From contig NC_089452.1 in the NCBI RefSeq assembly GCF_026210795.1, forward strand, positions 3,038,001 to 3,102,000: a stretch of DNA of 64,000 bases. The letters run 5' to 3'. The notes below the pieces were generated by a model. The model saw only the letters and a list, made by a program, of their open reading frames with translations, had not been told where the DNA came from and did not search any database. The stretch is from Rhizophagus irregularis (Eukaryota; Glomeromycota; Glomeromycetes; Glomerales; Glomeraceae). Shown here piece by piece: positions 28,003 through 63,727 of this stretch (positions within the stretch are counted from its first letter, which is position 1; each line of letters begins with the position of its first letter). The position numbers and the translations under genes are program-made.

Positions 28003-28054
28003 TATACTTCTCCGTGAATTAATTACAGTTTCGATATTACATTCTGTAAAAATA
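28003..28054 (+). repeat. Internal copy of the hAT left terminus
   Basis: This stretch begins TATACTTCTCCGTGAATTAA. It follows the left end of the hAT element at 25157 for about 50 bp with few changes, in the same orientation. It therefore defines a second possible element, 28003-29293, that shares the right end of the larger one. Confidence 0.75.
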
Positions 28055-28499: not shown

Positions 28500-28990
28500 A
28501 CGTTTTTTAGAGATTCCAGTTTGTAGGAATTGATACGGTAAGTGTTTATAAAGGGTGAGTGAGTGAGTGGGGTTATATATATATAAGAATGATACTAACG
28601 TTCTTTACTTTTATAGATTTCGAACTGGAAATTAACATTAAAGACAGGTAGTAGTGTTTTTAAAAGAGAGGGGGCGCAGGATTTGTAAGAATGTTTACTA
28701 ACATTCTTTAACTTTCTTTTGTAGGTTCAGACTGGGAACTTGAATATGAGTAAGTGTTTATAAAGAGGGAGAAAACGGGTTTATTTTTTTATATAAGAAC
28801 GTTCACTAACGTTCTTTTACTTCTCTTTTTATAGGTTTGGATTAGAACTTAGAATTCGAGATGAGTAAGTGTTTCTAAAGGGGGGAGGAAGCAGATTTTG
28901 GTTTTTTATTTAAGAACGTTTACTAACATTCTTTAACTTCACTTTATGTAGATTTCAGAGTTCAGACACACAAGTCATTTTTTACCTTTT
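28500..28990 (+). repeat. Tandem array A of intron-like units, inside the hAT element
   Basis: Four complete units are readable. Intron-like parts are 28538-28616, 28648-28724, 28750-28834 and 28865-28951 (79, 77, 85 and 87 nt). Three of the four begin GTAAGTGTTT; the second begins GTAGTAGTG. Each has TACTAAC or CACTAAC inside an AAGAACGTT...AACGTTCTT inverted repeat, then a T-rich tract ending in TAG. The exon-like segments between them are 25-31 nt (28511-28537, 28617-28647, 28725-28749, 28835-28864). More weakly formed units with AAACTG or AAACCG palindromes precede at 28310-28500. No coding potential is obvious. Confidence 0.7.
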
Positions 28991-29301
28991 CATACAACTG
29001 AAGCTAAAACTGGATTTAACATTATAGTAGGAACGGACGTTTAATTTTCAAATATAATATTTTTTTAATAATAAAAAAGCTATATAAATTGTAATTTTAA
29101 ATACATTTTGCTAAAATACAATACGTCTGTCAAAATATAATACATCTATCATAATGCAATATGTCCGTCATAATGCAGTACGTCCGTTAAATTACATTAC
29201 GTCTGTAAAAATAATTACAGTTACGTCAATTTGGTTTCAGCACCTGTGCCGGAATATTTCGGCATTCTAAATTTTAATTCGTGGAGAAGTATACATGTTA
29301 C

Positions 29302-29765
29302 TATGATCTCTTTCTATTTTCATGAGGAGTAACCCGTAAATTAATTTCAAATGATAGAAGTTTTGGTATATCAGTCATTGGAAATGTCACAAAAATTAAA
29401 GGCAAATTTTTTTTAATATGTATGCTATAATAAAAATTTTGGCGTAGTATTATCTTCAAGTATATAGTATATATATAATATTTAAAGTTGGCCAAAATTA
29501 GTTAAATCGGTTAAAATTGCTGATTAAATCATAATTTTGGCCAAAATGTCTATAATGCTGGCCAGATTTATAATGCCAGCCTAAAATTGAAAAAATGCAG
29601 GTCATATGTAACACTACATTTGTATAACATAATACGTAAACTCTAAAAATAAAAATAAAACTTATTGAACGTCTCTATAAATTTATAAAAAAAATTTTTC
29701 ACCACACTTTTGTTATTCGAGTTAGATCTCTGTTTGAAGTTAGTGTATTTTTTTTTGTTAAAATA
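29302..29765. other. Intergenic AT-rich stretch
   Basis: No gene is visible. A cluster of GGCCAAAATTA/TGGCCAGATTT words lies at 29485-29590. A short promoter region for the next frame presumably lies at its right end. Confidence 0.35.
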
Positions 29766-32700
29766 ATGGAAGGTAAGAAAAACATGGCTTTTTATTAAAC
29801 ACGATGAGAAAATTTAAACTATAAAACTAAGACCAATAATATTCATATATTTTTTATTGAAAAAATTTTAAAAAAAAAATCTTTTTTTTTGTAGATTTAA
29901 ACCTTCCTGAAAGTACATTTGACTTGACAGAATTATTAGATAAAGATTTATTAATAAGTGAAAATGAAACTTATGACGAATATGAAGACTCAGAAGAAAA
30001 TAAGGATTTAGAGGAAAATTTGATGGATGAGAATGAAATTTTTTACAGTGAAAATGAGATAGATAATAATAATAAATCTTTATTTGAATTGGATTTTAAC
30101 GCATTTGCAAATGCAAAAAAATTTGTTCAACAAGATATTTCAGATGAAGAAAATAATTTTGGTGATATAGAAATTGATTTTTCTGAAACAGAATCTGATG
30201 AAGAATGTGATGAAATTATTGATAAGATAGAAAATGATGAAAATTTAAGTCCATGTGTTATAATTGATATGTATGATGGTAAAATTCAACGATGTAATTC
30301 TGCAAAAAATTTGAGACGACTTTGGTAAATGATTGGTATGTGGCAAATTGACGAAGAAGAAGTTAGAGCGAAAAACTTTGCAATTGAACATTTGGGAGTT
30401 TGTTACTCACATTTTATGTATGATCAAAACCAATTGCATACATCAAATCTAAAGCAAACTAAAAAATATACTGAAAGTATTATTCATCGTCGTCGTTGCC
30501 TATTTTGTAATAGAAATAAAATTTTTTTTAGTCGTAGTGCTAATTGTGAGGAACATTCATATGTAGTTATAGGTAAAAATATTCAAGTTCCTTGTATAGG
30601 ACAAAAGAAATGTGGTGCTTTGCAAGAATATCATCTTCTCGTAACTTCAATAAAATCAAGTGAATATGCACAATATGTATGCATGGATTGTTATGAAAAA
30701 AAAGGTGGCCATATTTACCAGCGTGTTGGAAAAGGAGTATAAAAAGATCCAAATTGTGATAATAAGTCACATCACCAAAATGATACTAAAGAAGCATTAG
30801 AGGCAATTAGATATTGGATTCTTGAAGTTGCTACTTCTGAAAAATTAATATGGCAAGAAAAGATTTTGGCAGCTTTAGTTCCTGTTTTAAGTATTGTTAG
30901 TCAAGAAAAAACAATAGTACAAAATAATAAAATTGAAATACCTTTTTTATTTATGATTCTTATTATTCTTACTTTAGCAAAGTTTAATTACAATTCATCT
31001 AATAAGTTAAATTCAAAAAATCTTATACCAAAACATTTTTTCGAATTTGGAGAAGCATTAGCAAATTCAATAATATTAGGGCAGTGACATTTATTACGTA
31101 ATATTTTAGGGGGTGGGAGGGTATTTAAAGGTCATATAACATATAAGTGTAACGTAAGATTTTTCATATTACATGGGGGTGGGGGAGTATGGGCTTATAG
31201 TAAATGGATATTACGTAATAAATGTCACTGCCCTTAGCAAAAAATAAATTAAAAATTCATAAAAAAACCCTCGAATCACCTACCTCAATTGAAGAGTATC
31301 GTATTATATTTCCCTCATGTCTAGTGCAATTTTATGACGGACTTTTAAAAACTCTATATGAAGCAAAAAAAGAAATTATAGATTGACAAAAAAAGCATCG
31401 TGAACAGCAACTTAAACCTATAAATTATGAAAAAATTACTAAACAAGTAACATTTTTTGCATCAATAATTTTGAATATTGCATTTAAAGGGTGGAAAATT
31501 TGGTTACCTAGAACAATGGCAAGTTTTTGTCGCAAACCAAAACTCTTATCATATCTACAAGGTATTTTAGAAATAGTTAATATTACTAGTTATACTCAGA
31601 GACATGAACGTAATTTGGAAAAAATTCGCGCACTTTTAGTAAATCCGGCTGATAGAATTTGTTATGAAAAAAACATTTGGAACCTTGGAGTGATTGATAA
31701 TATTGATTTTAAGGAAGCTACCTTCGGTTATGGAAATATTTTTGATGTAACTAGAGGTAATTCACACGCAACTTTACGTATGTTATTTCAATTTCAGTTG
31801 TCTGATAAATTACCTAATATTATTGATGAAACAAAAGAAAATCAACAAATTTTTGGACCAAATTTTTTTTCATTGCAAACATTAAATGTTTTTAATTCAG
31901 TTTTTAAAAAATTACTTAAATATGATAAAAATACCTTAATGCATTGTTCAGATTTTGATGAAAATGATATACGAAATCAAATTATGTTACATTTTGAAGT
32001 TGGTTGTAATTTTCCACCTCCCAATGTAATTATTCTTAATGCAAGAGATCCACCATCAACTGATTCTGCTGTACATGAATGCTTAAAAATGTATTTAGAT
32101 GAAATTAATATAGAAGATAAATATATTCATATTGCTGCAGATGAAGCAATTTATAGAAGAGATATTAGTTATTGCAAAAAAAATGAAAAAGTAAAAATGA
32201 TCCTGGATCAGTGGCATACCAATAAGGATATGATGTCTGCATTAATTACAATTTTTTTAGGATACGGTATATTTAATATGGCAGGAATATTAGGTGTACG
32301 ATTTTTGGATAAATTAGAAAAAGGTGTTGATTTTAGAGCAACTTCAAAGGTATTAGAACTAATTTGGGTTTCTGTTGGTATAGGAATTAATTTATATATA
32401 GAAAAAAACAAACAAACATTAGATGATATTTTTAAAAAAAATAAAATTGTGAAAGTTTGGTATCTGTATTTTTAGTGGGCTAGTTATTGGCGAGCACATT
32501 GGTTTGGAATCCGATGGGTATATTTAAACTTCAACATGAAAGTCTAAAAGCCTTTTCCCCTTTGTTTCCTGTTGCTGGAAAGTCAAATTACGCAAGATTA
32601 GTATCACATCATCTTTATCATATAGAAAATGACCCACAGATTCGTGCAATACTTTGTATGGCGCCATCTGTTAACTTGACAAGTTACGGACACTTTCTTG

Positions 32701-33326
32701 CATATGATGAAGCATTAGAGTTGTTTGGTGTCAAGTTTGTAAAGCAAAATGTGACAAGAATTCCTACAGATAAAGAAGAATTAAAATTAAAAATCAAAGC
32801 TACACAATTGGAAAAAGAACGAACAGATATGTTAATTTGTGATTACATTAATGACTCTGTACAAAGCTCCCAACCACGTCATATTCAATCTCGAAAAGTA
32901 AAAATTTGGGAACTTGCACATTTATTAGTTGATGCTTTCGAATCTGCAAATCCTTTTAAGCATCCAATATTTGAATTCTGTAATAATTTAAATAGTCAAG
33001 GAATTGATAAATTGTTTTCAGCGTATGATATTGGAATTAAAAGGTTGCAAAGAATAGTTAACCAAAAAATTCTTTTAACTGAAAGTTATACAACTGTTGG
33101 AAGGAGAGAAAGGAATATAACGCGTGTTACAGTTGCTGACATTAATAAAATGAGAAAGATGAAAGAAGGTGAAAGAAGAGAAGATAGAGAAATAGGAAGA
33201 TCAAGAGGTAAGCTAAGGGGTAGGCCAAGGGGTAGGCCAAGAGGTAGACCAAGAAGTAGACCAAGAGGTAGGGGAAGACAAAGGGATATTAATAAAGGGG
33301 ACGAGGAAAATGCACAATCACAATAA
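29766..33326 (+). pseudogene. DUF6589-like, AT-hook transposase-like gene, broken by stops and a MITE
   Basis: A 7 nt first exon (ATG at 29766) splices to 29895. An acidic N-terminus (to ~30250) is followed by a Cys-rich block (RRRCLFCNRNKIFF, then C..H, CIGQKKC, CMDCYEKKGGH) at 30480-30720. A large central domain lies at 31471-32475 (FKEATFGYGNIFDVTRGN, IHIAADEAIYRRDISY, MILDQWHTNKDMMSAL). The C-terminal part is at 32500-33326 (LQHESLKAFSPLFPVAG, NLTSYGHFLAYDEALELFG), ending in AT-hook-like GRPRGRPRGRPR repeats. In-frame stops occur at 30326, 30740, about 31384 and 32473. One MITE is inserted at 31079-31233, and there is a frame change near 32515. The central D..H spacing and the late Asp-Glu-Ala block resemble DUF6589 proteins of mobile elements; that likeness is weak and family membership is inference. 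AT-hooks bind AT-rich minor grooves. Confidence 0.5.
31079..31233. mobile_element. Tourist/Harbinger-like MITE with TTA duplication
   Basis: A 155 bp element has inverted ends GGGCAGTGACATTTATTACG. It is flanked by TTA on both sides (31076-31078, 31234-31236), the usual 3-bp target of PIF/Harbinger elements. Excising it restores the coding frame of the AT-hook gene from ANSIIL into AKNKLKIHKK. Confidence 0.85.
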
Positions 33327-34289
33327 TTACTGTTTTTTAAAAAGAAATAAAATTATTAATTAAGACTAAAAGTAGCGACCCATTTTTTGATATTAATTTC
33401 CAATTTTATTCAATTAAATTAAATTGAATTACATTTTCGTAAAAACCTCAAAAAAAAAAAAAATAACTACCAACAAAATAATAAAATGAAAAAAAAGAAA
33501 CTCCCAAAATTAAACTTAGTTTGATTCGTTTATCATTGTCACTACCCAGCCCTGATGGATTTCCTTTGTTATTATTGTTGTCTGAGCCTTTACCATCTGC
33601 CAATATGCTGCTCCTGATCCAATTTACCATTTGCTGAATACGCTTCTTCATTTGCCAGCACTGCTTTTGGATCTTTTCTGTTTGTTGGTGGCGCTGCTCC
33701 TCCATCTGGTGGAACAAAAAAGAATTGGTTAAAATAAATAAATAAATTAATTAAAATAAAGATACGTAACATCTAAACTTACCATCTACTAAGGTGCTCT
33801 GAAGAATTTATAAAAAATGAAATATTGCATCAGAGAAAAAAATGAAAGCATCCTTCTCTAAGAAATTTGTTTTATTAAGTAAATAAAAGTAAATTATTAA
33901 TAAAATTAATGAAAGAAATAAATATAATGAAAGAAATAAATAAAGTGAAAAAAATTTACCATTAAAGAATAAATACGTATAAATTTACTTATAAGTGGTC
34001 GCCAACTATAATATTTTTTCTTCAAAGATCTTTTAAAAAATCAAATATAAATTACAATTCAAAGAGGAAAATTTCCTAAAATAAAAATTTTTTTTTTTTA
34101 AATATCATAAATCAAATATAAACAAAACAAACAAACAAAAAATAAAAATAAGCAATTTAAACTATCGCTCACATGTATCTAACCTTTAGCCAAAAAATTA
34201 ACCAAATTGCCGAATAAATCCACTGTAACAACAAGAATATAGTGAAAACTAATAAAAATAAAAAAATAAATAAACTTTATTCATTTCTC
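33327..34289. other. Intergenic stretch with a weak minus-strand frame
   Basis: The only coding-like signal is minus-strand text at 33770-33560 (TEKIQKQCWQMKKRIQQMVN and the neighbouring GGAAPPTNRKDPKAVLANEE in another frame). It is too short and frame-broken to name. The rest is A-rich with no recognisable feature. Confidence 0.35.
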
Positions 34290-34292
34290 TTA

Positions 34293-34588
34293 GGCCAAGT
34301 AAATAAATTTATTCGTTTCTCATGACCGGGCGGGTCATGTAAATGTTACGAAAAGATAAAAAAATTTATTTTATTTGGTCATGTGATTTTGGGTTTGACC
34401 AATCATAATCATAAAAAAATAATTTTTTTTTCCATTCCGTAACCCGGGCAAAAAATTTATTAAATCAACCAATCATCTTCTAGGAAACGACTAAAATTTT
34501 TTTTTGAAAATAAATTTTTTTTCCGGGCGGCCGGGTCAAATTTAGCAATTTTTTTTCATGAGAAACGAATAATTTTATTTCTTTGGCC
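34293..34588. mobile_element. Tourist/Harbinger-like MITE (GGCCAA ends, TTA duplication)
   Basis: About 296 bp have ends GGCCAAGTAAATAAATTTAT and the inverse. The arms share TTCGTTTCTCATGA and are flanked by TTA (34290-34292, 34589-34591). GC-rich CCGGGCGGGTC and CCGGGCGGCCGGGTC words lie just inside the arms, which is unusual in this AT-rich background. Confidence 0.7.
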
Positions 34589-34591
34589 TTA

Positions 34592-35794
34592 TAGTAATTA
34601 ATTTTTCATTAAAAAAAGAAAAGGCCACTTACAATAGTAAAATTCAGTTTTTTGCGTTTTGTGCAAAATCTGACTGAATAACTGTTATTATAAGCTTAGA
34701 AAAACTTTTTCCTCTCGTAAATTTACATATATTACTACTGTTAAAACTGTACATTTCTACCTATCTCAACTTAGATCTTGAGAAAAGCTAGCTTTTAAAG
34801 TGGTTTTTCAACATATATGAAAAAAAAAATTTTATTAATAAAAATGGGAAAGTAAGGATAAAGTTGATGGAACACATGATAATCTATCGATTTAATAATT
34901 TACATGAACGTGACACATAAGATTTTGACAGTTTAATTACAAAATGAAGTGTTCCGATTAATGTTACACAAATTTCATTAAATATGAAAATGATCTGCGT
35001 GTGACATTTCCGATGACTGATATGTATTCTTATCTAGTTTTTCAATTTGAGTGCATCACACAAACTCTTAGCGTTAGTTTGCAAAATATTATTAGCTTTT
35101 TGAAAGTGTTGTAACAATAATATAAAAAAAAATAACATACAATTATCAGAACAATAGGTAATAATGGCTTTTAGAAGGATTTATATAGCAGATAGGTTAT
35201 TTTAGATTGAATTTTTCATTTTTAGATCTTTTCTATTTGTATGTTAGTTACGCTTGTTTTTAGCCAAAAAACCATCCCTTTGACAATAATATTTGAGTAA
35301 TTTTCATGTATGAGCAATTTTTACTGAATAATGAATATTTAAGGACGTAGGTACGTGTCAGATTTTAGCGTTTATTGTGAGTTTCTATGTGAAAATATTT
35401 TTCTTGATATTTTTCTTGGCATTTTTAAGTTTCATCACATGACTTGGTACCACAACATGATTTGTAATGATTTTGATTGGCAAAATTTTGCTTATTTAGT
35501 TTATTTTTTGCAATAAAATTTCTTCCGAATTTATATAGTAATTTTCTGTTGATTATAGGCGGATCGAATCTTAATTCTTTTTATTGAAATAAATTAATAA
35601 TAAGTGAAAATTGTAGGCTGTAATAGTCTTAAATAAATTTGCTTACCTAATATATAATTATTAAAGGGTATTTGCTATTTAGATAATTGGTTTTTAAACT
35701 ACTGGATTTAAAATTTTTTGTATATATTACCAAACTTTTTATATAGTAAAGAATTTGAAAGTTGGAGCAATTACATTTGGTATATTATACATAT
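34592..35794. other. Intergenic AT-rich stretch
   Basis: I see no gene, RNA or clear repeat structure here. Confidence 0.35.
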
Positions 35795-36472
35795 TACCCA
35801 AATTATTTTGGAATGCCATAATTATAATTTGGGATACCATAATTCGGGATCTAAAAATATATATACAGAATGTAAGCGGTACACAGATGCATACTCATAA
35901 AGGGAATTGCATAGAGTAAAGTTTTGATTTGCATACAATTTTAGAATTTTATCTATAATTAGGTCATCAAGATTGCATATTTTTTATCAAAATTTTTATA
36001 TGTAAAAAATTAGTTTGCGTATTTTTGGCCTAAATTTAGCTAATCTTATATATATAATATATTACTGTACGTATTTATTTAATTAACCGCATTGTAATAT
36101 TTAGTATTAATTGAAAGAAATTTCTAAAGGTTAAAAAGTGAAATTTTAGAAAAATATTATTAAAAAAATGGTAAATTCTATTTTTTCACATTAGTATTTG
36201 GTTTTATAAATAATATAGAAGTCATGATAAAATAATTAATAACTTAATGTCTGAAATTTTATTTGCTTATTTTTGCAGGATTTTCAATATCAGGTGTCAA
36301 TTATATGTACTCATAGTAAAAAAATTTTTTGCCACCTGTTATATTTCTGGATCCTCATAATTCATTCAGTTTATATATAATTTATTATGTAAAGTGCCAA
36401 AATAATTTGGGATGCTATAATTGAATTTGGGGATTTTACTTATAATTACAGCAGCCCAAAATAATTTGGGTA
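35795..36472. mobile_element. TA-flanked MITE with CCCAAATTATTTTGG ends
   Basis: Inverted ends TACCCAAATTATTTTGG and CCAAAATAATTTGGGTA include TA at both borders. Inside each end an AATTTGGGATRCYATAATT word is repeated. The middle is AT-rich without coding sequence. TA borders suggest the Tc1/mariner/pogo group. Confidence 0.7.
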
Positions 36473-36935
36473 ACATGTATATGGTATATTAAAGGTTAGT
36501 TAAAATATATAAGTATAAAACTAAGCTGAATTCTTTTTATTCAATTGGAAAGATTGTTATAAATACTTCAGATCAATATAGTATTATCAATATATTATGA
36601 AATTAGAAGTTAAAAAAAGTTATCTACATGAATCATTGTATGATTTATAATCAAATACTGTAAAATTGTAAAATTTAAGTCCTTGGAATACTTAGTAAAA
36701 ATGGAAAGTAAAGTATTTTATATGGTTATATAATAATGTTTTTTTTTTGAAGATAAATCTCTTTTTTTACTTTAAAGATACCATTAGAAAATGCATTAAG
36801 ACTAATGCAACAACTGTGTTAAAGAGTATCCAGAGTATCGAGAGTATCCAGGTGAAGGAGATATTTTTATTTTGTAACCATCACCGAATATTTTACATCA
36901 CACACATTACATTAGGGAAATCATTTGTATTGAAG

Positions 36936-36943
36936 TCACGTGA
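36936..36943. promoter_or_regulatory. TCACGTGA palindrome upstream of the CENP-L gene
   Basis: The 8 bp palindrome lies 52 bp upstream of the ATG at 36996. The same word lies 86 bp upstream of the Prp8 ATG (56468-56475). A CCACGTGA variant lies 8 bp after the CENP-L stop, about 240 bp upstream of the CLASP gene. CACGTG is the core site of bHLH factors such as yeast Cbf1; which factor acts here is unknown. Confidence 0.4.
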
Positions 36944-36995
36944 TTATTCAGACGCGTCTAAAATTACGATCAATTCACTTTTTAGCGTTATTGCG

Positions 36996-38554
36996 ATGTC
37001 GAAAAGAAAGGATGACCAAAAGAAGCGAAAGAGAAGTGTCAGGAGCAACGAGATGGAAGAAGGTCAAAGAGAAATTACTGCCGAATTGGACTCAGGTAAA
37101 TTTATCTTTTAAATGTTCATATGATTCAAGCGAATTTATTACGATCCCGAATTACTTTTTTTATTTACTTCACAGATATTTTTATAAATAAAACATTTTT
37201 ATTATATCGATGTACACCTTTTTACAAATTCGAGCACATTAAATTTACTCAATATGGAAAAGAATTACACAATTTCATCACTGGTCAAATGTTGAATAGA
37301 ATTCCATTGGTTTGCGATAATGGAGAGGAGAATGATTTTATATCGGAAGGGAAAGTTGTAGAATTGTTCATATCAAAGATAAAATTATCTAATTGGAACG
37401 GTATGATAATATGAAAAAAAAAGAGTTTTATGGTAATGGTTTTATGAATCGTTGTGTTTTCTCTAGGTACAAATGGTATGCCAATTGGAGTTGAGATAAA
37501 GTTCAAACCGAAAGGTATAGCTCATTAATTTAATTCATATTTAATTTACGCGTTTATTGAACGAATGCTTTACAATAATTAATAAGGACCAGCAAAGGAA
37601 CAGATATTTCATTTAATATTCTTACCAAGTATTGTTAGTCGTGATTTTGCGCCTGAAAATTGTTTGTATCCTTAATTTTTTTCTTCTTTTTTTTTGAATT
37701 ACAATTTATTTAAATATAATCTCATTTATTATATTTAGCGCCGTTTAATCATTATCCTGTTATTCTTATAAAAGCTCCTCAAAGACTCGCAAACATTGCA
37801 ATCGAATGGTTTGAAACTCGATTTGATTGCAGGATATGCAGATATCGCCTAGAATCGTCTCATCTAAAAAAATTCGTAGAAGAGTTGGCAAACATAAGTT
37901 TTACTTGTGATGATTTCATTCAAAGCACGTTTAATTTTTTGATTTATTAAATTATTTCTTACTTTGAATAACGAACTAAAATTTGTATTGCTTTGTATAT
38001 ATAAATATTGTTATTTAATTCACAATTAGCAAAGCCATTTGAGCTCACGTTTACAATCCCAGATATTTCAGAGATCAAAAATATAAAATTACGAATTTCT
38101 CTCGTTGATATCAAACGTCTTTACAATAGGTAACTTCACTTATTTCACTCCGAATTTATTATTTCAATTATTTCAATAATTTCTGATTTGCTTTCAAATA
38201 GGTCAAAAGAGCAATCTGATTCACAACGTAAGCAATTTTTTAGTAGCAGACTTATTATAAAGTAACTTCTAATTATACGTATTGATTGTAGAATCAGGTA
38301 TTGCGGAAAGAATTGATGAGCATTTCTTTGAATGTTTACGAATTAAGCTTTCTTCGTTGATACTTTCTAAGATTAGTAATCATGCGGCATTAGTTGCTGG
38401 CGAGGGGAAATTGCAGGTAACTTCCATCTGTCTCACTTTTGTCAACATTGAATATACATTTATTTGTGAATTTATGATCTAGATATTCGCAGGACTATTA
38501 TCCCCTAAGTTTACTGTATCACTTTTAAATCAGCTGGTCATGTTTACACGATAA
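36996..38554 (+). CDS. Centromere protein L (CENP-L) homologue, inner kinetochore
   Basis: Nine exons joined by GT-AG introns (36996-37095, 37176-37400, 37467-37514, 37587-37661, 37739-37906, 38030-38129, 38202-38227, 38292-38416, 38483-38554) give about 312 residues, close to vertebrate CENP-L. Shared landmarks are a lysine-rich start (MSKRKDDQKKRKRS), LLYRCTPFYKFEHIKF, IEWFETRFDCR in the middle, KPFELTFTIPD, and a C-terminal FFECLRIKLSSLILSKIS followed by GKLQIF. CENP-L pairs with CENP-N in the constitutive centromere-associated network (yeast Iml3/Chl4, fission yeast Fta1/Mis15), which binds CENP-A nucleosomes. The donor of exon 5 is uncertain: GTGATG at 37907 or GTTTTA at 37898, both in frame. 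It lies 255 bp upstream of a CLASP-like gene on the same strand. Confidence 0.75.
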
Positions 38555-38809
38555 TTTTGATCCACGTGATTTACGTTTCATATGGTAAATTTAGGCGGCA
38601 TTAAATATAGTAAATTTTATTATCCCGAAAAGGTTATGTCGTACTCACGTATTCCATGTATTTCATGTATTCATAGCCAATAGATTATCGTGTTTTATTG
38701 TAAACATAAACAGTTGTAACACCTCGTACAATAAAAAAAGTTAAAAGTTTCATTTCGAGACAGTCAAATTAGTATTTTAACTTTTCTCGCTCTTTTCATA
38801 ATAAAATAA

Positions 38810-41203
38810 ATGGCAGGAGTTCCAACAGAAATAAAAGTATGAATATATAAAAAAATTTATTCTATTCTATTCTATTCTATTTGTTTTATTTTATTTTTCT
38901 GTATTTAAAATATTGTTTCACAGGTTGAAAGCGCTTCTCAACTAGATAATGAGATAAAGCAAATTGTTGAAAGATTTCAAGAAAAAGAAACAGAACATAC
39001 ATGGTCAGGTTTCGATGATTCTTTAACCCGTTTGATTGCTATAACTCGAGGCGGTGCTGTTCTTTATGAAAAAAATTACATATTAGGAATCAAATCTTTG
39101 AGACAGCCAATAATAAATTCGGTAAATAAAAGATAAAAAAATAATCATTTAATTAAGTTCAATAACGTTTATTTGTATTAAACAATAGATATTGACAGAG
39201 AGAACAAAACTTTCTGGAACTGCGACAGAATTAATAGAAGAGATGGCTAAAGCACTTGGATTAAAGTTTGATGCATTGTCGGAAATTTTTGTACCATCAA
39301 TTATTAAGTTATGTACGCGTACAAAAAAAACTTCTCTTATTCGAGCTCAAAAATGCATGAATACGATAATTCGAATATGCCACCTTCCAAATCTTATCCC
39401 AAAATTTAAGGAAGCATTGCAACACCAGAGTAAATCCTTGAGGAATTGTGCAGCTGAATGGGTGCGAATGAGTTTGGAAGCGAATGAAGTTGGAGATTTG
39501 AATTATTATATTTCTGATATTGAGTGGGCTATTCGCCAATGTGCGTCTGACTCATCATCAGAGGTTAGAAATATTTCAAAACAAATCTTCGAAATTTATA
39601 AATCCAAATTTGATCTTAGATTAGAAAAGTAAGTTTACATTTTATGTTTTTGTTCAGGTTCGTGTTAGGTTAATTTTATTAACTTTATTTGGCTTATTTT
39701 TTTTTTTTTAAATAAGTTTCGTTGCGACTGTAAAAAAAGATTCTGACGTGTTAAAAATTTTGGGCATTAAGGATAAATCAGCTAAAGTAAACAATTTAGC
39801 AATAATGAAAGCACAAAGTCGTAAAATTAATAACGTTCGAGATATGCAAAACGATGTTATTATCTTCGCTAATGATGAAGATAAATTGCAGATTAATAAC
39901 AAGAATGAAGACAAAGAGCAGATAGCCAAAGACAAAAAGCTTCCTTTAAATGATAATTCTTTGAACAACGAAGATACAACTGCGTTTACTATTCCTTTTG
40001 GTGAGCCACAGAATGCAGTTGGTGCTTTATCCACAGCTACTGGGTTTGTTACATTAAAACGTCCAAAGTTAACATCAGCTCAACATAAGTCTCAACCCGT
40101 TATTACCACCACTGCTCAGAGAGTGCCAGCTAAGCCAACAAGGGCTCAGACGATTAATACATCATCATCAATTAATCGTGATGCAGGCACTGGAACTGGT
40201 GAGTGTGATAGTAAACCCTCACAACAATAATTTCTTTATTTATACATCTTTATTCTGTAAAAACGCGGATATTTTTATTTGCATACTTATAATACTACAA
40301 AAACTGCGTGGCATTAACAAAGGGGGCGCTCAACGCGTCCGAACTAGAGAGCGTGCAGCAACGGCTACCGAAGATAAAAATAAGGCTAGTCGTGTTCTAA
40401 ATACAAACAAGATCATTAACACTAAACCATCGAGACCGCCTTATACACGTACAACGAGTGAACCGGCTACTAATCCTACAAAGAAAAAGACATCACATAA
40501 ATTCAACATTAAATCAAAGGCGGCACCTCTTATAAATAATAAAACTCCTTTAAAAAAAACAAATTTAGCTCCAAATTCAGTATTTAAACCTTTGAAAGTG
40601 ACAGCGACGTCAACTTCAATGATGAAAGGATTCTTAACCACCGCTAATCTATGTGTAACAATATCAACTGCAACTAAACAATCAAATAGTAACCAAATGG
40701 AAAATTCGGCACTTACGAACATGCGCTTATTTGGTAGATCCAGGGAACATCAGCGTCAATGTTCACCTTATCAAAAGCCTGCCATTAATTTTGTTACGAG
40801 GAAATTTGGAAGACCATTGCCAAATCGCGAAGAATTAACCGCAAAAGTGAATGCATTGGCTAATCATGCCATCGAAGTAGTGATGAAACAAGTGGAGGCA
40901 TCTTATAATTTGAATGTTGAGGTAACCTCAGAAGAGCAGATGATTGAGGATGATGTCATTGAAAATTCTACTACATCAAGAGTAAGACCGCCAATTAAAC
41001 AGCAACTACCAGCAACTCAAGACATCACACCACTCCCTGTTGAACCTTCTCCTCCCCTTTCGTTCGTTGATCCTGTTAAATTCTTGGAAGATGTTCGAAA
41101 AATTGAGGTGGATGGATGTGATAAGGCGGATAAAGTTACAGGACCGGAAGTTGGTGATTTAATTGAAAAAACCAAAGAATTAACAATAGAAGGTCAATTA
41201 TAG
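38810..41203 (+). CDS. CLASP-type TOG-domain microtubule protein
   Basis: Five exons (38810-38836, 38924-39121, 39189-39628, 39717-40198, 40323-41203) join in frame to about 675 residues from the ATG at 38810. Residues ~10-225 have the helical repeat pattern of the CLASP N-terminal TOG domain (HTWSGFDDSLTRLIAITRGG, TATELIEEMAKALGLKFD, EVRNISKQIFEIYKSKF). The rest is basic, Ser/Thr/Pro/Lys-rich and probably disordered, as in the microtubule-lattice-binding regions of CLASP/Stu1/Cls1. Those proteins promote microtubule rescue and kinetochore attachment. It is shorter than the usual 1000-1500 residues, so it may be a reduced or partial member, and a related TOG protein is the alternative. Confidence 0.6.
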
Positions 41204-41951
41204 ATACATATTGAATTTAGATAAATTTATAGATAATCGGTTGTGTCTTGCATTCTCTATAAAATTTATACTTTGAAATAATTACTATTTACTGAATGTT
41301 TGAATATCCTAATGAACAGGCACAATGTATATTTTTAAAAATACAATAAAGTACATCCGTTTAGCTAATGTGGTTATGTAAAATATTATTTTTATCTTTT
41401 CAATAGCAAACATAAATGCAAATCAACTTAGAAAAGTAACTGAAGTGTTAAAATTGTTCACGGAAATATTATTATAAGTTCACAGCTTCACCGACGTAAC
41501 TGCTGAAAAATAAGACTCCTTAAATTTAATAGTATAATATTAAACTGAGATAAAGCAGAGGCAAGAAACAATTCACTGGTTGGCTGCTGATTATACAATA
41601 TAACGCTTCGGCAATTAATATTATTTAATGATAATTAACATTTACATTAAAAAATTAGATTTTTAACCTAAGAAAAAATTTTCTTTTTGAATATATGTAT
41701 ATACGAGAAATTAATAGATATCAAAAAAAAAACAAAATATACATTGGTTACTATTCCTATGATTAAAAACTTTCACAAAACAAATAAGTAATATAATGAA
41801 AGTAAAAACTAATCTTCGCAGTCATAAAAATAAATCTGAATAAAAATCTCCATTAAATATGTAAAAATTTTTTCTCATAATTTAAATTATCCAAAAAAGT
41901 CCTTTTAAAAAGATGACTTCAAAGAGTTTCCTAAAGTTTTGTGATTTATTT
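41204..41951. other. Convergent intergenic region
   Basis: This holds the 3' flanks of the CLASP-like gene (plus) and the TMEM33-like gene (minus). AATAAA-like words occur (near 41343). No further gene is visible. Confidence 0.45.
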
Positions 41952-43257
41952 TTAACCCCGTCTGGAGTTATGAGAATTTCTACGACCCATCCAAATTATT
42001 GCATTTTTCGCATGTTGATATGCTTTCGTCACAGGGGGTGGAATGCTTGGGCTTGCTGAAGGAGGCAACAGCCGCTCATCCAGAAATCGTGCAACAGCAG
42101 CAAATACTTGTTGGGTGTAAGTATTCATAAGATATCTCATGCGGAGGAAGAAACAATAAAAGAGTAATGTAATAAATCTAAGTTGTAGGCTAATAAACGT
42201 AATTTAGAGAATGAAAAGAATGGGTGTTAAAACGTTGCGAAAGTTCGATTACAAAATCTTTAACAAAAGTAAAATTAAATAAAACGTACGTTACTATATT
42301 AAACAACAGAAATAATGTGATAACTACAACTTCGACGAAACTAACCATATTCATGGCTGGTTCATAATTCTTGTGTACCCAAATTTGAATAAATTTTGAA
42401 GCGCTGTTAGCTCTTGTTTGTGTCCCTGAAGAAGAACCAGAAGAAGAATGTGCAGGCGCGGGGGAAAATGCTTGAAGAATATTTGCTCGTAAATATGTAA
42501 TGAAATGGAACAATGAAAATGTTGCGTATGGGATAAGAGTAACTTTGGGCATAAAATTAAATGATGTTAGATAAAAGTAGACATTATTAAGAAAACATTA
42601 GATCATTCCACATACCAAAAACAGGCGTGCTCATGAACCACATTAATGCCAACGTAAGATAGAATACATTTTCGTCTTTGTTGATCTTTTGGAAATATTC
42701 CCAGTTAAGCTGTGGTGACTAAAATTACATAAAATTTAGTATAAAAAAACTATTCAACACTCGATGACCTCAATTTGTTTGAACTACTGCTAATCTTATT
42801 CTATAACAAAATAAGAACTGGATGATTTTCTTAGATTTCCTGATCTAAATGTATTTTTCCAATTAATTTTATTTTTTTTTTATTTGAATACTAAATTACT
42901 CATTAAAAGCCTTGCTCTTTTTCAAGTTTAAATTATATAATAAAGACTCAATTTGTAAAAATCAACTCACGCCAAACGATTTATAAACGACAACACCATA
43001 ACTCAACATAGCGCCCAAATACGCTGTATAGTAATAATTTATTCCCTCAGGCCAACTAAGGGTGATCCAGTACCAAAAATAAATAGTTGTGCAAAAGAGG
43101 ACAATACAATGTCCACACCACCAGGTGAATTGAGGGTGCTATATAAAACATAATGCAACGTAAGTCATATATATAAGATTAAAAGAAATCGCGTAAAAAA
43201 AAATACAGATACCTTAACGAGTATCCAAAGTCGGTTTGCGAGAGGTTGTTGTGCCAT
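41952..43257 (-). CDS. TMEM33/Pom33/Tts1-family ER and nuclear-pore membrane protein
   Basis: Five minus-strand exons (43213-43257, 42971-43138, 42616-42718, 42290-42542, 41952-42189) give 268 residues, close to TMEM33 (~250). The ATG is at 43257 (MAQQPLANRLWILVK). Hydrophobic segments include HCIVLFCTTIYFWYWITL, the region around VFYLTLALMWFMSTPVF, VTLIPYATFSLFHFITYL and SFVEVVVITLFLLFNIV. A Ser/Gly/Thr-rich loop (PAHSSSGSSSGTQTRANS) separates the third and fourth. The C-terminus FITLLFYCFFLRMRYL fits the shared end of the family. Members curve ER tubules and help place nuclear pores. It is transcribed divergently from the small gene at 43977. Confidence 0.75.
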
Positions 43258-45629: not shown

Positions 45630-47219
45630 ATGATTTATGCTGAAGAAGACACGCAGACTATTTTTCAAAAAGAACAAGAAACTTTGGTACCTTTATTTAT
45701 AAATACTTTACCTTTTTGATGTATCTTATTAATTTTTGTTTTTATTCTAGGCGAAGGAATTGGATTGGTTGTTGATTTCTCAATTACCAAATGCACTTTA
45801 TGAGATAAAGAAAGGGCTGAAGGTAATTGATCTATTTTGCTAAATTTATTTTGCTCTCTTAGTAGTCTATTATATTTACAATATTAACTAAATTAGAGGT
45901 ATATATATATACATTATATATGTATGTAAAATATTTTTACTAAATGGGTTAATTGAATTTTAAAATTGTAGAAATGTGAAACGATTATGAAGTCACCTGA
46001 ACATGATGGTAGAATTTATTTCTTTTATATTCTATCGTAATAAATAAACTCAAAAATGTTAATTATTCAAATAGATTCTCTGGGCACAAGTACTTTACCG
46101 ATATCATCAAACAAGTATATATATATATATATGATTTAGTTGTTGTTATTTAAATGATTTTCTAATTTAGTTTTGTTTTAAGTAATGATTTTTTAAAAGG
46201 ATTCATTACTTTAGATGGTAGCGATATTATCAAAGGGGTATATTCGTACTTTTATTTGGTTTTTTTTTTATAATGAAATATAATAAAATAAATAAATTTA
46301 ATCTTTAATTCGATATAATTATAGGAATTATCAGTAAAATTATCTAATTACAATAGGGGTAATTTAATTAAACTAACCATTAATCCAAAAAAGCCTTACT
46401 TTATTGAACAGGTAGTCTTCAATATAGATTATACTCGCACCACTCGCACTATGTTTTCTTGATTTAATATAATATTCATAATTTCATTAAGTTGGTTGAT
46501 GCACAGAATTACCTTACTTTGGCATTGGATGCATTGGAACGCACTAGTAAAGATCTTACAAAAGAAAGTGCTCGAGAGGTAGATTCATTTCTTAAATGAA
46601 GTTTTTTGTTCGTTGATAAAAATTTTTGCTGACAATATTTAGTTGTTAGATTCTGTTCTCATTTATATTATAAGTAGTCGATCAGTTTTGGTTTGTGCTC
46701 ATGAAGAAAAATTGTTCCCTTATAAGATTTGCGATCCTCAGGTAAAGACTTTTTTCTTGGTCTCTTTTATATCAGTAATAAATAATAAATTGACATTTTT
46801 TTAGATGTTTGGTACAGTAATACCCGAAGATTTAATTATTCAATTTCATGTAGAAGGATCAAATGTTGTTTGTTCAGTTTATGGACTACATTACCATTCT
46901 TCTTTACCATCACAAAAGAAAAACGGTGGTTTGTTAGGAACGGCCAAATCATCTTCAAATATTTGGTATCCTTTTTAGCATAAATTTAGTATTAAGTTAA
47001 TATATATTTTTATATTTTCTTTATTTTCTTGACATTCTAAACTCTTTATAAAATAGGAAGTATAAAGATAAATATGCTTCTGTGTTAGATAAAGTGATTG
47101 TAAAATCACGTGATCCAAAACTCGAGGAAGTTATGGAAGGTTTGGAGAAATTAGAAAGAGAGTGTTTAGCTTGGAAAGGAAAAATTGCTTTATTCAAAAA
47201 TTTGGAATTAGGAAATTGA
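45630..47219 (+). CDS. Rav2/Rogdi homologue, V-ATPase assembly (RAVE) subunit
   Basis: Ten exons (45630-45686, 45751-45822, 45972-46008, 46075-46114, 46171-46237, 46325-46411, 46492-46578, 46643-46741, 46805-46965, 47057-47219) join in frame to 289 residues, matching human ROGDI (~287). Landmarks are an N-terminal helix with acidic residues and ELDWLLISQLPNALYEIKKG (leucine-zipper region), KLTINPKKPYFIEQLVDAQN, MFGTVIPEDLIIQFHVEGSN and VVCSVYGLHY. The C-terminal helix is KLEEVMEGLEKLERECL. In yeast, Rav2 bridges Rav1 and Skp1 and reloads the V1 part of the vacuolar proton pump. The gene has 56-149 nt introns, useful as a size yardstick for the intron-like arrays. It is convergent with Prp8. 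Confidence 0.75.
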
Positions 47220-47603
47220 CCATCCCGCACTTTTACGTGATGATTTACACCAGAATAATGATTTTAATATTTACTCTCAGTATTCATTATATGATATTAT
47301 TCTAATATCCGATTAACTTTTTTTCTTGCATTGTATTTAAATAAAATATGATATTGAAAAAAATTTTCTGCAAATTATTTATATCGTTTTATAATTTATT
47401 AATTCTTTAAGATAATTTGCTTTTTCCTTTTACCAACTTCTTGATATATATATATATATGATAAAAGTATTTACAGTAAAAGAATTTGAATAATTATTAA
47501 AATAATTCATCTATAACATGTATTTTATAATGTCTATATTTTTTCAGTCTTAATAAAAGTAAAAGTCTTAATAAAAATAAAACAATGATTAATATTATAC
47601 TAT
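47220..47603. other. Convergent intergenic region between Rav2 and Prp8
   Basis: This holds the 3' flanks of both genes. It has AATAAAA-like words (near 47338 and 47575) and a TA dinucleotide run near 47445. No gene is visible. Confidence 0.45.
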
Positions 47604-56381
<8,778 letters not shown>

Positions 56382-57205
56382 GAGTCTTTTACAGAGATGT
56401 TTAACGTTAAGTTATTTGGTCAAAATAAAAGTGGGTATCGATCTAGTTTTAAATTATTAATGATATATCACGTGATTTAGAATTCATAATTCCTTATCCA
56501 AATAAGGAAAAAATTTTATTTTCCAATTTAAATAATAGTAAAATGTTCTTGGTTTTCATTAAAGTCTTCATATTTATTTTGAAGTTCAATAACATTATAT
56601 TAAATGTGAAATTTCTTGGTTAATATAATTTTCTAAAAGTTTGAAATTTACTAAACAAACTAAACTAATAAATTTTGAAAATCCTGGAAAGTTTTATATT
56701 ATATAAAATTTATTTTTTTTTTTTTTATTAATAATTATTATTATTATTATTATTATTATTCTGCAGCACATTTGGAACTTTTATCAGAAAATTGCACCTA
56801 AACTATTACATTGAGATTACATAAATAGAAATAATAAACTAATATTATTAGGAACAAAACCATCTATCTACCACTCAGGGTAACTATATGTGCACTGTCA
56901 GGTTGGAACTTTGAACTAGTGGAGTAAGTCTGTTTTTGAAAACTTCCTTTCTTAGAGAGGATTTCCTTCTCCAGGTCTTTGTCCTGTAAGTGCCCAACAA
57001 GACTCACTGTAACTGCAACATAAAACTTAGAACCATAAAAACAAAAAATAAAAAGTTCAATAAAAAAGCTAAGGTAAAAATAATATAAAAAAAAAGGGTT
57101 AATAAAATTTAAATAACAAATAACTACTATAGTATTCTATTAGCCCTGCCTATAGCTTACCAGATAGTCCTGTCATTCTGTCAGTTAACTATCTTGTTAA
57201 GTATA
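56382..57205. promoter_or_regulatory. Prp8 upstream region with TCACGTGA and ATT microsatellite
   Basis: The palindrome TCACGTGA lies at 56468-56475, 86 bp upstream of the Prp8 start. An (ATT)n run lies near 56728-56760. The remainder (56760-57205) shows no gene and ends at a foldback element. Confidence 0.45.
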
Positions 57206-57707
57206 CAGGTCAAAAAGTGAAAAATCAGGCATCAATCAGTCACCAATCAGTCACCAATCAGGTAGCTGATTGGTAACTGATTGGTGACTGATTGGTGACT
57301 GATTAGCATTTTCACCAAATATCATCACCAATCAGGCAGTTTGCTAACTTTTGATCCAGTGATCAGAAAAGGATAAAATATAGCTCATTGGAATCGTCTC
57401 AACAAGACGAATTTAATGGTAGTAAAATTGCATCTCTAGGATTAATACTTGATGAGAAATTAAGTAAAATATAAAAATAAAAATGTATCATTTATATTTA
57501 ATTTAATTTTTTATTAACTATTAATCCTAGAAATGCGATTTTACTACCATTAGATTCGTCTTGTTGAGACGATTCCAATGAGCTATATTTCATCCTTTTC
57601 TGATCACTGGATCAAAAGTTAGCAAAATTCCTGATTGGTGATGGTATTTGGCGAATATGCCGATTGGTGCCTGGCAATTGATGCCTGATTTTTCACTTTT
57701 TGACCTG
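57206..57707. mobile_element. 0.5 kb foldback element
   Basis: The ends are CAGGTCAAAAAGTGAAAAAT and its inverse. Arms of ~250 bp include short tandem TGATTGGTGAC words in the left arm only. An inner inverted pair contains CGTCTCAACAAGACG, and TTTTCTGATCACTGGATC in both arms. The inner hairpin word is shared with 5447 and 16170-16470. I do not see a clear target duplication. Confidence 0.65.
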
Positions 57708-57779
57708 TGGTAAGAACTTGATTTCTACTAACAAAGTTAGTTTTGCTATACTATCCAAATCCTTTTCCAAAGTAGAGGT

Positions 57780-57960
57780 GTGCTCCAGTGAAATCTGTTC
57801 AATCCATCATCTGATCTGATCAAAAAATGGATCATTCAAATTAAGAATGAACATACAGATTGCGGATAATCCGGATAGATCCGTTGGATAATATCAGATT
57901 GATCAGATGTTACATGGATGACTGGATTGACCGGATTGATCAGATAATCTGGTCAAATTC
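57780..57960. repeat. GATC/GGAT word-repeat stretch
   Basis: About 180 bp are built from variants of CTGATC, GGAT and CCGGAT words (TCCGGATAGATCCG, GACCGGATTGATCAG). They are preceded by GTGCTCCAGTGAAATC. It resembles the CGAGT- and CAGGT-word elements at 24.3-25.1 kb and 63.1 kb in style. No gene is visible. Confidence 0.4.
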
Positions 57961-58024
57961 ATACCTTTTTTTTTTTTTTAACATAAATGTTTTTTTTTAA
58001 AAAAAAACACCTTTTTTTCTTTAG

Positions 58025-59398
58025 AATAGACTTGGACTTTGACTTCAGAACAACTTGGACGGCTTGAATTTCAAAAAGTAAATGTAAATTTCTTTTTCTT
58101 TTGTCTTGGAAATGTCACTAAACGTTCTTTTACTTCATTTCTTTAGGAAACGCCTGCCTGAAACTCAATTTCGGCTTGGGCTATAAAGATAAGTTGGGGG
58201 AGGGTAATTTTGATTTTTTGTTTGTCTTTGGGAATATCATTAACGTTTCTTTTGCTTTTTTTCTTTAGGGGATGCCCTCCCAGATTTGGATTTTGGCTTG
58301 GCTATAAAGGTAAGTTGAGGGAAGGTATTTTCAGGTTTTTTTTGTCTTTAGAAACATAATTAACGTTCCTTTTGCTTTTTTTCTTTAGGTGATGCCCTTC
58401 CTAGACCTGGATTTTGGCTTGGGCTATTAAAGTAAGTCAGGAAAGTTATTTTTGGGGGTTTTTTTTCTTTGGGAGTATCATTAACGTTTCTTTTACTTTT
58501 TTTCTTTAGGTGACGCCCTTTCTAGACTTGGATTTCGATTTGGGCTATTAAAATAAGTTGGGGAAGTTATTTTTTTTTTTTTGTCTTTAAAAATGTCATT
58601 AACGTTCCTTTTACTCTTTTCTTTAGGTGACGCCCTTCCTGGACCTGGATTTTGACTTGGGCTATTTAGGTAAGTTGAGGAAGGGTGTTTTGCTTATTTT
58701 TTTTTTAGGAACATCATTATTCATTAATGTTCCTTTTGCTTCTTTTCTTTAGGTAACACCCTTCCTAATCTGGATTTTGGCTTGGACTATTAAAGTAAGT
58801 TGGGGAGGTTATTTTTGGATTTTTTTTTGTCTTTAGGAACGTAATTAACATTTCTTTTGCTTCTTTTCTTTATGTGACGTCCTTCCTAGCCTGAATTTCA
58901 GTTTGGGCTATTAAAGTAAGTTAGTGAAGGGTTTTTTATCTTTTTTTTTGTCTTTGGGAACATCATTAACGTTTCTTTTTCTTTTTCTTTAAGTAATGCC
59001 TTTCCTAAATCCTGGATTTTTGGGTTGATAACTTTATTAGTCTCTATTACTACGAAAGTTAAGAGGATCTTTGAAATTAATAGTAAACTTACCACAAAAC
59101 TCAATACCAAAATCTCTAATTAATTCACCACACATCTATCCTTGGCTTGGGCTATTAAAGTATATTGGGAAGGGTATTTTTGGTTTTTTTTGTGTCTTTA
59201 AGAACGTAACTAACGTTCCTTTTGCTTCTTTTTTTTAGGAGGATGCCTTTTGGACCTGGATTTTGGCATGGGTTATAAAGGTAAGTTGGGGGAAAGGTAT
59301 TTTTATTTTTTTGTTTTTAGGAACGTAATTAACGTTCCTTTTGCTTCTTTTTTTAGGGAGACACCTTCTTGGACCTGGATTTCGACATGGGTTATAAA
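58025..59398 (+). repeat. Tandem array B of intron-like units
   Basis: About ten units with a ~120 bp period are readable. The exon-like segments read approximately GATGCCCTTCCTRGACCTGG then ATTTTGGCTTGGGCTATAAAG. They are 41-43 nt in most copies (58147-58188, 58269-58309, 58389-58431, 58510-58552, 58627-58669, 58753-58794, 59239-59280, 59356-59398), with a divergent 53 nt first one (58025-58077). Intron-like parts are 69-83 nt where measurable, with donors GTAAGT (several copies are mutated to ATAAGT or ATACGT), an AATTAACGTTCC branch-like word, a C/T tract and a CTTTAG acceptor (TTTATG in one copy). The region 59030-59140 has an insertion and lost register. Not every exon copy is open in a single frame. 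Confidence 0.75.
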
Positions 59399-59863
59399 GA
59401 TACGTCAAGGAGGGGATTTTTTTGTTTTTTAGTTTTTGGATAGTCTTTAACGTTCTCTTCTTTTTTTTCTTTAAGGGTCTTAACACTAGTCAAAATAGTC
59501 CAAATCAGCCAAAATTCAGCCAGCCGATTTTAGGCTGATTTATAGTCTAATGCTGGTCGAACTTTAGCCAATTTTTTGGCTGCAATTTGCTACCACTCAC
59601 CCAAAGTTTAGCTTGAAATTTCAGCCAAAATTCAGTTAACATTCGGAACAATTTCAGATAGCAAATTTTGGTGAATAGTTTTCCAAATGTTGCTTAATTT
59701 ATGTTGCAAATTTCAATTTACATTTATTTACTAATATTCGGCCACAACTCATTTTATTTGATATTCACAATAAAATCACAACTTTATTTATAAATGCATA
59801 TTACAAATAAGTATTACTAATCTACAATTCCACAATCACATTCATGTATCCGTATATACTTAC
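59399..59863. other. Spacer between convergent arrays B and C
   Basis: There is no gene. The words CAGCCAAAATTCAGCC and TTTTAGGCTGATTTATAG occur at 59500-59560, related to the AATT/GGCC words found through the window. Confidence 0.35.
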
Positions 59864-60680
59864 GAATCTTGATTTTTTGGAAACCCACCAAAACTATAAA
59901 AAAGAAAAGAACGGTTAGTAACCGTTCAAAATATTAAAAAAAAGCAAAAAAAACCAAGATTCTACTTACGAATCTTTGGTTTTTTTCTGTTCTTTGGAAT
60001 CCGCCTTAGACATTAAACCTATAAAAAAGAAAAGAAAAGAACGGTTATTAATAACCATTCATAATAATATTAAAAATAAAAAATAAACCAAAGATTCGTA
60101 CTTACAAATCTTGGTTCCACTTTTTCCAAAGATCCCGAAATCTAAAAAAAAGAAAATGAACGGTTATTAGTAACCGTTCATAATAATATTAAAAAAAATA
60201 ATAAATAATAAACCAAAATTCGTACTTACGAATCTTGGTTTTCTATTCACGAACCTATAAAAAAAAATACAAGAACGGTTAGTAAACCGTTCGTAATAAT
60301 AAGAAAAAAACAAAGTAAAATTCATACTTATGAATCTTTTGGGCTTTCATTCTTCAGAAACTCCGAGACGCCAAACCTATAAAAAAAATTAAAAAGAACG
60401 GTTAGTAACCGTTCCATAACATTAAAAAAAAAAAGATTCACAAGTATATTACTTACTAATCTTAAAAGTTCTCATTTTTCCGATCTTCAGAAGCCTACCC
60501 GAACCTATAAAAGAAAAGAACGGTTATTAATAACCGTTCATAATATTTTATTAAAAAAAAATAAAAAAAAATAAAAATTTGTACTTACGAATCTTTATCT
60601 TTAGGTTTTCGTTCTTCAGAAGCCCACCCAAATCTAAAAAATAAAAAAAGAACGGTTATTAATAACCGTTCATAATATTT
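59864..60680 (-). repeat. Tandem array C of intron-like units, reverse strand
   Basis: Seven units on the minus strand each have a GTAAGTA-like donor following AAGATTC, a GAACGGTTACTAACCGTTC or related palindrome, a T-rich tract and a TATAGG-like acceptor (CTAGATTTG-like in two copies). Exon-like segments are about 30-49 nt (for example 59864-59893, 59970-60018, 60103-60138). The measured intron-like parts are 76 nt (59894-59969) and 84 nt (60019-60102). A Tc1-like element ends the array at 60681, and the array resumes at 63014-63090. It converges on array B. Confidence 0.75.
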
Positions 60681-63725: not shown

Positions 63726-63727
63726 TT

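Follow-up and report, generated by a model that had tools for sequence, protein, structure and literature searches.

A stretch of 64,000 nucleotides from Rhizophagus irregularis (NCBI RefSeq assembly GCF_026210795.1, contig NC_089452.1, positions 3,038,001 to 3,102,000; "the window" below) contains three tandem arrays (A, B and C) whose units look like a short exon joined to a complete small intron. We consider it probable that these arrays are the interiors of R. irregularis DNA transposons made of exon-intron cassettes. Tandem runs of 4 to about 19 cassettes appear to be carried by no fewer than four families, of which three are hAT-like and one is CACTA-like, each with its own ends. Each cassette would consist of a mini-exon (mostly 25-60 nt) and a complete U2-type intron (69-96 nt), with the branch site placed in a palindrome.

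Tandem Arrays of Intron-Like Units

An earlier note, made from the sequence alone, had reported the three arrays, and all were located at the places and on the strands given there: A at 28.48-29.0 kb (+), B at 57.98-59.48 kb (+) and C at 59.86-60.68 kb (-). Units were cut by hand and by pattern at splice-like motifs, which resulted in 21 intron-like units in the window (A, 4; B, 11; C, 6). Their length is 69-88 nt; the lower bound of the range given earlier (69-87 nt) stands, and the upper one is slightly exceeded. Most of the mini-exons measure 25-53 nt, as reported. The introns of array A are at 28538-28616, 28648-28724, 28750-28834 and 28865-28951 (+), with the mini-exons between them. Those of array B are at 58078-58146, 58189-58268, 58310-58388, 58432-58509, 58553-58626, 58670-58752, 58795-58873, 58916-58992, 59160-59238, 59281-59356 and 59400-59475 (+). 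Those of array C, on the minus strand, are at 60588-60505, 60456-60377, 60331-60255, 60229-60142, 60105-60019 and 59969-59894. Ordered splice signals had been attributed to every unit, but only 15 of the 21 keep both GT and AG. GT starts 17 units (B2, B5, B11 and C3 start with AT), and AG ends 19 (B7 ends with AT and B8 with AA, as cut).

A strict intron pattern (GTRAGT, a branch site YTAAY, at least 75% pyrimidine, AG) occurs three times in A, six times in B and five times in C on the sense strand, and not at all on the antisense strand. In 1000 dinucleotide shuffles, the mean number was 0.013 for A, 0.042 for B and 0.022 for C, and none of the 1000 attained the real count. In the rest of the window (59.8 kb), the pattern is absent from the plus strand and occurs twice on the minus strand. 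Judged by the strict count against the shuffles, the arrays thus contain the signals of a U2-type intron (GT, branch site, pyrimidine tract, AG) in their proper order. The splice-like arrays are not a product of chance.

The earlier note saw no obvious exon or intron body shared between the arrays. This has to be corrected, because a branch-site hairpin (GAACG..TAAC..GTTC) is common to all three (A: AAGAACGTTCACTAACGTTCTT; B: AGGAACGTAATTAACGTTCCT; C: GAACGGTTACTAACCGTTC) and the intron 3' ends are alike (see below). Perfect stems of at least 6 pairs occur in two units each of A (of four) and B (of 11), and C has six of them; the other stems are imperfect. In array C, a second palindrome spans the donor (AAGATTC/GTAAGTACGAATCTT). 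A hairpin scan detected 21 hairpins in the window vs 5-16 in ten first-order random sequences; with an upstream donor, there were eight in the window vs 0-2 in the random sequences. An Rfam search gave no match at gathering scores. When the viral_contigs and genome_contigs collections were searched for the hairpin, the three longer patterns had no match and the short pattern had four.

Host Transposons and Nested Insertion

Array A lies in a hAT transposon at 25157-29293 (+). Its terminal inverted repeats (TIRs; TATACTTCTCCGCGAATTAA and TTAATTCGTGGAGAAGTATA, inverted repeat I25) are 20 nt long and 95% complementary, and identical 8-bp flanks (CATGTTAC) are present at 25149-25156 and 29294-29301, as expected for a hAT element. 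Upstream of the array is a broken hAT transposase gene (25394-27897, +) with interrupted open frames. The search for transposase domains covered eight window frames; 27043-27513 matches PF05699 (Dimer_Tnp_hAT, E 1.6e-6), and 25394-26092 matches no Pfam family. Between the transposase gene and the array, the sequence of the element's 5' end is present once more (28003-28022, +). A relative with the same arrangement lies on contig C5. A 40-bp tandem repeat directly precedes array A (28337-28446), and its palindromes TTTCAGTTT..AAACTGAAA and TTTCGGTTT..AAACCGAAA differ by a paired change.

Array B is held by an element whose left part spans 57773-59483 (+). It begins with the TIR TAGAGGTGTGCTC at 57773, a boundary that was set from eight aligned copies. 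Its right end (GAGCATACCTCTA) is at 65880-65892, beyond the window, and was read in L064 (the prefix L designates loci fetched from the genome). The flanks of the window copy (TTCCAAAG and TTCTAAAG) match at seven of eight positions. In the three copies with both flanks read, the target-site duplication is complete (8/8) in L055 (CCCTAAAA) and L050 (CTTGGTTG) and absent in L049. Full copies of the family measure about 3 kb or are slightly longer. Judged by its TIRs and 8-bp target duplications, the B family is hAT-like.

The element holding array C starts at 59484 with the terminus CACTAGTC and covers the window up to 64000 (-), continuing to 65465 outside. Its other terminus is at C24:3103439-3103465 and was also found in L064. 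Ends of the C family are CACTGGTC..GACCAGTG, beginning with CACT(A/G). A 3-bp target duplication is present in all four copies whose two flanks were read (TGG, ATA, ATA and CCC); that of the window copy is not clean (TAA vs CTT). The family is CACTA/EnSpm-like, with the superfamily assigned from the ends and the target duplication. The C element (59484-65465) was inserted within array B, the right end of the B element following after it. Array C itself is split by a 2.3 kb element (60681-63013, no strand assigned) with inverted ends of about 27 bp that start with TATGGTC (TATGGTCTGGTGCAAAAAAGTTGATACAC and GTATCAACATTTTTGCACCGGACCATA), an element that looks mariner-like. A further exon and a donor palindrome (63031-63062) follow at 63014-63090 (-). 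Array C, which the earlier note had correctly seen at 59.9-60.7 kb, thus runs on to about 63.09 kb. The span of the C element also contains a 52-bp palindromic tandem array with 97% matches (63724-64000). In one subfamily, with the terminus CACTAGTC (L023, 991-3017, and L044), the array is preceded by a first exon of its own (MGMPVETTHRTLDNK / MGILVETTHRTLDNK).

A fourth element, L059, is 2034 bp long, with the ends TAAAGATGGTGCCGC.. and ..GCGGGCCCATCCTTA. The one copy read has an 8-bp duplication (CTTATTTT) on both sides, and on this basis and that of its TIRs, the family is classified as hAT-like. Yet another cassette type, with the donor GGTATGT in a different palindrome (GAACGAAACA..TGTTTCGTTC), was encountered in L061, which suggests that there are further cassette families.

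Copies across the Genome

The earlier note had called for a search for further units, which was carried out on the genome (146,748,485 bases in 32 contigs) and was successful. The exact C branch hairpin has 205 matches, the B unit pattern 462 (at most one mismatch), the A-like pattern 110 (at most two mismatches) and the C donor palindrome with its CpG variants 404. Reversed unit patterns, used as controls, have none. At a limit of three mismatches, one C-type end is matched 109 times and the other 119 times (controls: 0); these matches include some subfamilies whose interiors were not read.

It had been proposed that the unit itself spreads as an intron. The spread that is observed is that of entire arrays, inside hAT-like and CACTA-like transposons with TIRs and target duplications. 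Full copies are 2.0-3.5 kb long and hold many internal introns each, which is not the structure of an introner. Four C elements (L035-L038) have the same unit order with local gains and losses. Arrays may lengthen and shorten through slippage or unequal exchange, and elements devoid of a transposase would be mobilised in trans by autonomous relatives.

Likeness between Families

Two units each from A, B, C and D (the L059 type) were compared with each other. In all six family pairs, the final 42 nt of the intron are alike (mean z 3.7-8.3), with the reservation that the shuffles preserve single-base composition only and that z is raised by the arrangement of hairpin and pyrimidine tract which the families have in common. 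For the remaining intron, z is 5.4 for A-D, 2.5 for A-B and D-B, 2.1 for B-C, 1.0 for D-C and 0.1 for A-C. Exon z is 3.8 for A-D and between -0.8 and 1.9 in the other five pairs. A and D are clearly of common descent, which B likely shares. The introns of all families may descend from one source.

Related introns between unrelated exons could also have arisen by an introner-like spread, in which the intron, or just its 3' half, entered different transposons as a unit and underwent amplification once inside. The pattern just described (alike 3' ends in six of six pairs, exons not alike in five of six) and the different TIRs of the host elements are in agreement with this. The same pattern would, however, result from faster decay of exons, from exchange of interiors or from a shared function of the 3' end. 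As a point against such a spread, no lone intron was found in a host gene: four isolated-looking B-pattern matches, among the matches listed, were checked and all proved to be multi-unit. We thus consider an introner-like spread unlikely. A broader version, that unrelated DNA transposons of a single fungus were colonised again and again by a spliceosomal intron module, which was then amplified into arrays, is put forward only tentatively, as a possibility that we doubt on balance. If it applies, mobile-element RNA would be processed at 12 sites at least, and one insertion could seed a multi-exon gene.

Gene Models and Splicing

Spliced array pieces match database proteins. The spliced L038 piece has 109 matches at E<=10, of which 79 are at E<=0.001; 108 of the 109 carry the name R. 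irregularis, and one, which is weak, carries that of R. diaphanus. For the spliced L059 piece, all 10 candidates match (nine at E<=0.001), and all are from R. irregularis. At E<=0.001, 88 proteins are matched altogether (79 C and 9 D), each of them named Rhizophagus irregularis.

Three annotated proteins could be mapped exactly. P0161 (OCT59_011799) maps to L023 with 11 exons and 10 introns, nine of them with the branch hairpin, and all exons and introns are within the ends CACTAGTC..GACTAGTG. In this model, the first exon of the subfamily is followed by the intron without a hairpin. P0165 maps to L044 (hairpin in 7/7 introns), and P0234 (OCT59_024927) maps to L058 with nine exons (hairpin in 8/8 introns). 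The hairpin is thus present in 24 of the 25 introns of these models. According to excerpts of PMC10234402, R. irregularis was annotated by BRAKER2 with Illumina RNA sequencing data and refined with Nanopore RNA data; the OCT59 models appear to be this annotation. RIR_jg names appear to be from an AUGUSTUS gene set, which was made with intron hints from RNA sequencing (excerpts of PMC6123716). For one RIR_jg gene, the isoforms t1 and t3 are both among the matches.

Sequence signals and gene models together make it likely that the array introns are spliced from RNA, and we predict that the spliceosome (U2) removes them when an element is transcribed. To this extent, the idea of ready-made introns is supported: ordered signals are far above chance, and three gene models fit such arrays exactly. 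L036 lacks a GTRAG donor ahead of its first acceptor, and three B copies have an array whose last piece is an exon that no GTRAGT follows. Hypothetically, such copies could use a donor upstream of the insertion.

Several results weigh against the interpretation given at the outset. Exact placement in the fetched loci was achieved for only two of the 109 C-type and one of the 10 D-type proteins. For L023, four proteins were tried and one mapped; from the 109, those with their first nine residues in a fetched locus were tried, and P0161 and P0165 mapped; for L058, L059 and L065-L067, 10 were tried, and P0234 alone mapped (to L058 and the overlapping L067). Most of the tested proteins stay unplaced because their own loci were not fetched or differ. 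Placement of annotated proteins by tblastn failed because the exons are short. The models also use donors other than GTAAGT (P0161, GTACGA twice and GTGGGC once; P0165, GTTTAT once). Gene predictors favour GTAAGT..TAG, so that the models are suggestive only, and predictors may join such motifs unaided. GT or AG is missing from six of the 21 window units. In folding energy, the four A units are unremarkable (z -1.9 to 1.0 vs shuffles), as are eight of 10 B units (within about two standard deviations of shuffles, one of these being weaker by more than two). No lasting bias of G-U over A-C was seen among pairing losses when one pair is set aside (G-U:A-C 54:32 in B, with 24 G-U from that pair; 23:17 at the C donor; 17:15 at the C branch). 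Frame and phase tests detected no clear coding signal in the array exons. The limits of the likeness shuffles belong here as well, as does the confinement of likeness to the last 42 nt when C is compared with A or D.

A final such point concerns conservation within families; the earlier note had proposed to ask whether it is higher at donor, branch and acceptor positions than in the rest of the unit. Among 153 B and 148 C units, no excess conservation of splice sites was found, values being similar elsewhere in the unit. Conservation at the six donor positions is 0.92, 0.99, 0.93, 0.92, 0.91 and 0.94 in B and 0.89, 0.99, 0.99, 0.91, 0.93 and 1.00 in C. The outcome of the proposed test is divided, as likeness between families lies in the intron 3' end. 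Because there is no excess conservation at splice sites, no lasting G-U bias and mostly ordinary folding, the copies resemble neutrally decaying insertions. It looks as if any selection would fall on the source copies rather than on individual copies. Decay of CpG at the C donor was also followed (C to T keeps GT, and G to A destroys it). Among 56 units of the fetched loci, three donors were kept and six lost, while in the first 100 of the 404 genome matches, counted by eye, 14 were kept and three lost (mirror arm, 6:12); these two counts disagree, and the copies are not independent. Among B donors genome-wide, there are 23 GGTAAGTT vs two GATAAGTT, a count that has no control site.

Palindromes, Coding Potential and Folding

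The arrays could be palindromic satellites carried by transposons, with splice-like motifs that are incidental and never used. This would be consistent with the lack of excess conservation at splice sites within families and with array C, where the palindrome outlives the donor. The donor of unit C3 is ATAAGT, reading ATAAGTAT, and its palindrome partner is altered too, so that the palindrome is kept. C units that keep one position across several copies carry the donor loop in inverted form (GTACTTAC). The B and A-like donors, however, are outside that palindrome and yet retain GTRAGT. Order, strand and pyrimidine tract are correct in all three arrays, and the gene models use the predicted sites. 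An incidental origin of the motifs is thus improbable.

Alternatively, the transposons may carry a protein-coding gene with micro-exons, such as a transposase accessory gene or a gene for a secreted repeat protein. The database matches described above are what such a gene would produce. When spliced C frames were compared with 100 shuffles each, none attained the frames of L035, L036, L038, L039 and L040, and one to four attained those of L037, L041, L043 and L044. Shuffling of whole strings is, however, unfair as a control when exons are repeated and stops are rare in every frame. The window C copy is not open (64 of 100 shuffles attain it), the majority of spliced frames in L036, L038 and L059 contain stops, and the B frames are no better than shuffles in nine of 10 loci (the exception being L052, 1/100). 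Exon lengths are without a constant phase. In four C elements (13 exon groups), distinct variable exon sites are distributed 12/21/15 by phase, and 45 of the 48 two-state variable sites are transitions. A pairwise phase count (48/53/43) recounts the same sites and masks the skew of the 45-nt exon class, in which five of six variable sites are in one phase, as a coding gene would have it. Weighing both sides, we regard a coding function of the arrays as quite unlikely, more so than the two alternatives above.

The hairpins may, finally, be binding sites of the transposase or sources of small RNAs, with the intron form being secondary. Folding z is below -2 in B6, B9 and five of the six C units, and C4 reaches -8.8 in sense and -7.7 in antisense orientation. 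As a control with ordinary introns, eight introns of Prp8 with 45 nt of exon had a sense-strand folding z of -1.6 to 1.8, and the hairpin scan of this gene gave one match with a donor (52754-52781), in an exon after an intron. These folding values for C4 and an excess of double changes in C (donor palindrome, 17 vs 6.1 expected if independent; branch palindrome, 7 vs 3.0) would fit a function of the hairpin as such, which is nevertheless very unlikely, as a single change at one pair accounts for 11 of the 17 donor double changes, the B branch palindrome has 12 vs 10.1 expected, and the similar G-U and A-C losses give no sign of upkeep at the RNA level.

The gene for Prp8, a core protein of the spliceosome, is at 47970-56381 (-) and adjoins arrays B and C. 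The donors of its modelled introns (GTTAGT, GTATGC and GTAAAT) are more varied than those of the arrays. With a partial model of this protein as the query, the closest relatives belonged to R. irregularis and species near to it. Elsewhere in the window, a 147-bp tandem repeat is present in 2.5 copies (16179-16541).

Significance and Comparison with Known Systems

On the reading that we prefer, transposon interiors made of exon-intron cassettes, an intron-rich RNA might perhaps help the element to be treated like any normal spliced transcript. Transposons with a single intron rank among the foremost candidates for the source of bursts of intron gain. Elements with many cassettes would deliver a whole multi-exon structure in one step. 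Public gene catalogues already read some arrays as multi-exon genes, and given the 88 protein matches, some of the genes counted as orphans may be transposon interior. The arrays would also offer a setting in nature for studying how dozens of short, nearly identical introns are dealt with by the spliceosome.

In maize, insertions of Ds and dSpm are spliced from host transcripts, with splice sites near the ends of the element. The arrays are comparable in that hAT and CACTA elements supply splice sites (predicted here), but here such sites are repeated inside the element, over 4 to about 19 cassettes. The accessory gene tnpA of CACTA elements consists of many small exons. Array C resembles it in having many small exons within a CACTA element; unlike tnpA, introns of this kind are also found in the hAT-like elements, while an accessory gene of the C family may be present elsewhere.

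A limited word search of the literature, covering titles and the beginnings of abstracts, found no description of tandem intron cassettes inside DNA transposons among the papers listed. Introners are non-autonomous transposons with splice signals, many having TIRs or target duplications, with copies genome-wide (Gozashti et al. 2022, PMC9860276, in whose main text no word starts with Glomer, Rhizophagus or tandem). The arrays share with them the transposon-borne splice signals and the copies across the genome. Introners, as the main text of that paper presents them, bring one intron per insertion, whereas here a transposon contains many introns and exons and the whole element is not an intron. 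Stwintrons (PMC8469720, PMC9024468 and PMC12403724) are likewise sequence-similar fungal introns, some of them internally symmetrical, but they are nested introns rather than tandem cassettes inside DNA transposons. SP7-like effectors are from the same fungus and are encoded by tandem-repeat genes with introns; the excerpts of PMC11333574 list a signal peptide, hydrophilic repeats and a conserved intron before the first repeat. The arrays, unlike these, have one intron per unit, and their exons have no constant phase and no clear coding signal. The hosts are filed as hAT, hAT-like and CACTA-like transposons, and their cargo is a new form of transposon-borne introns.

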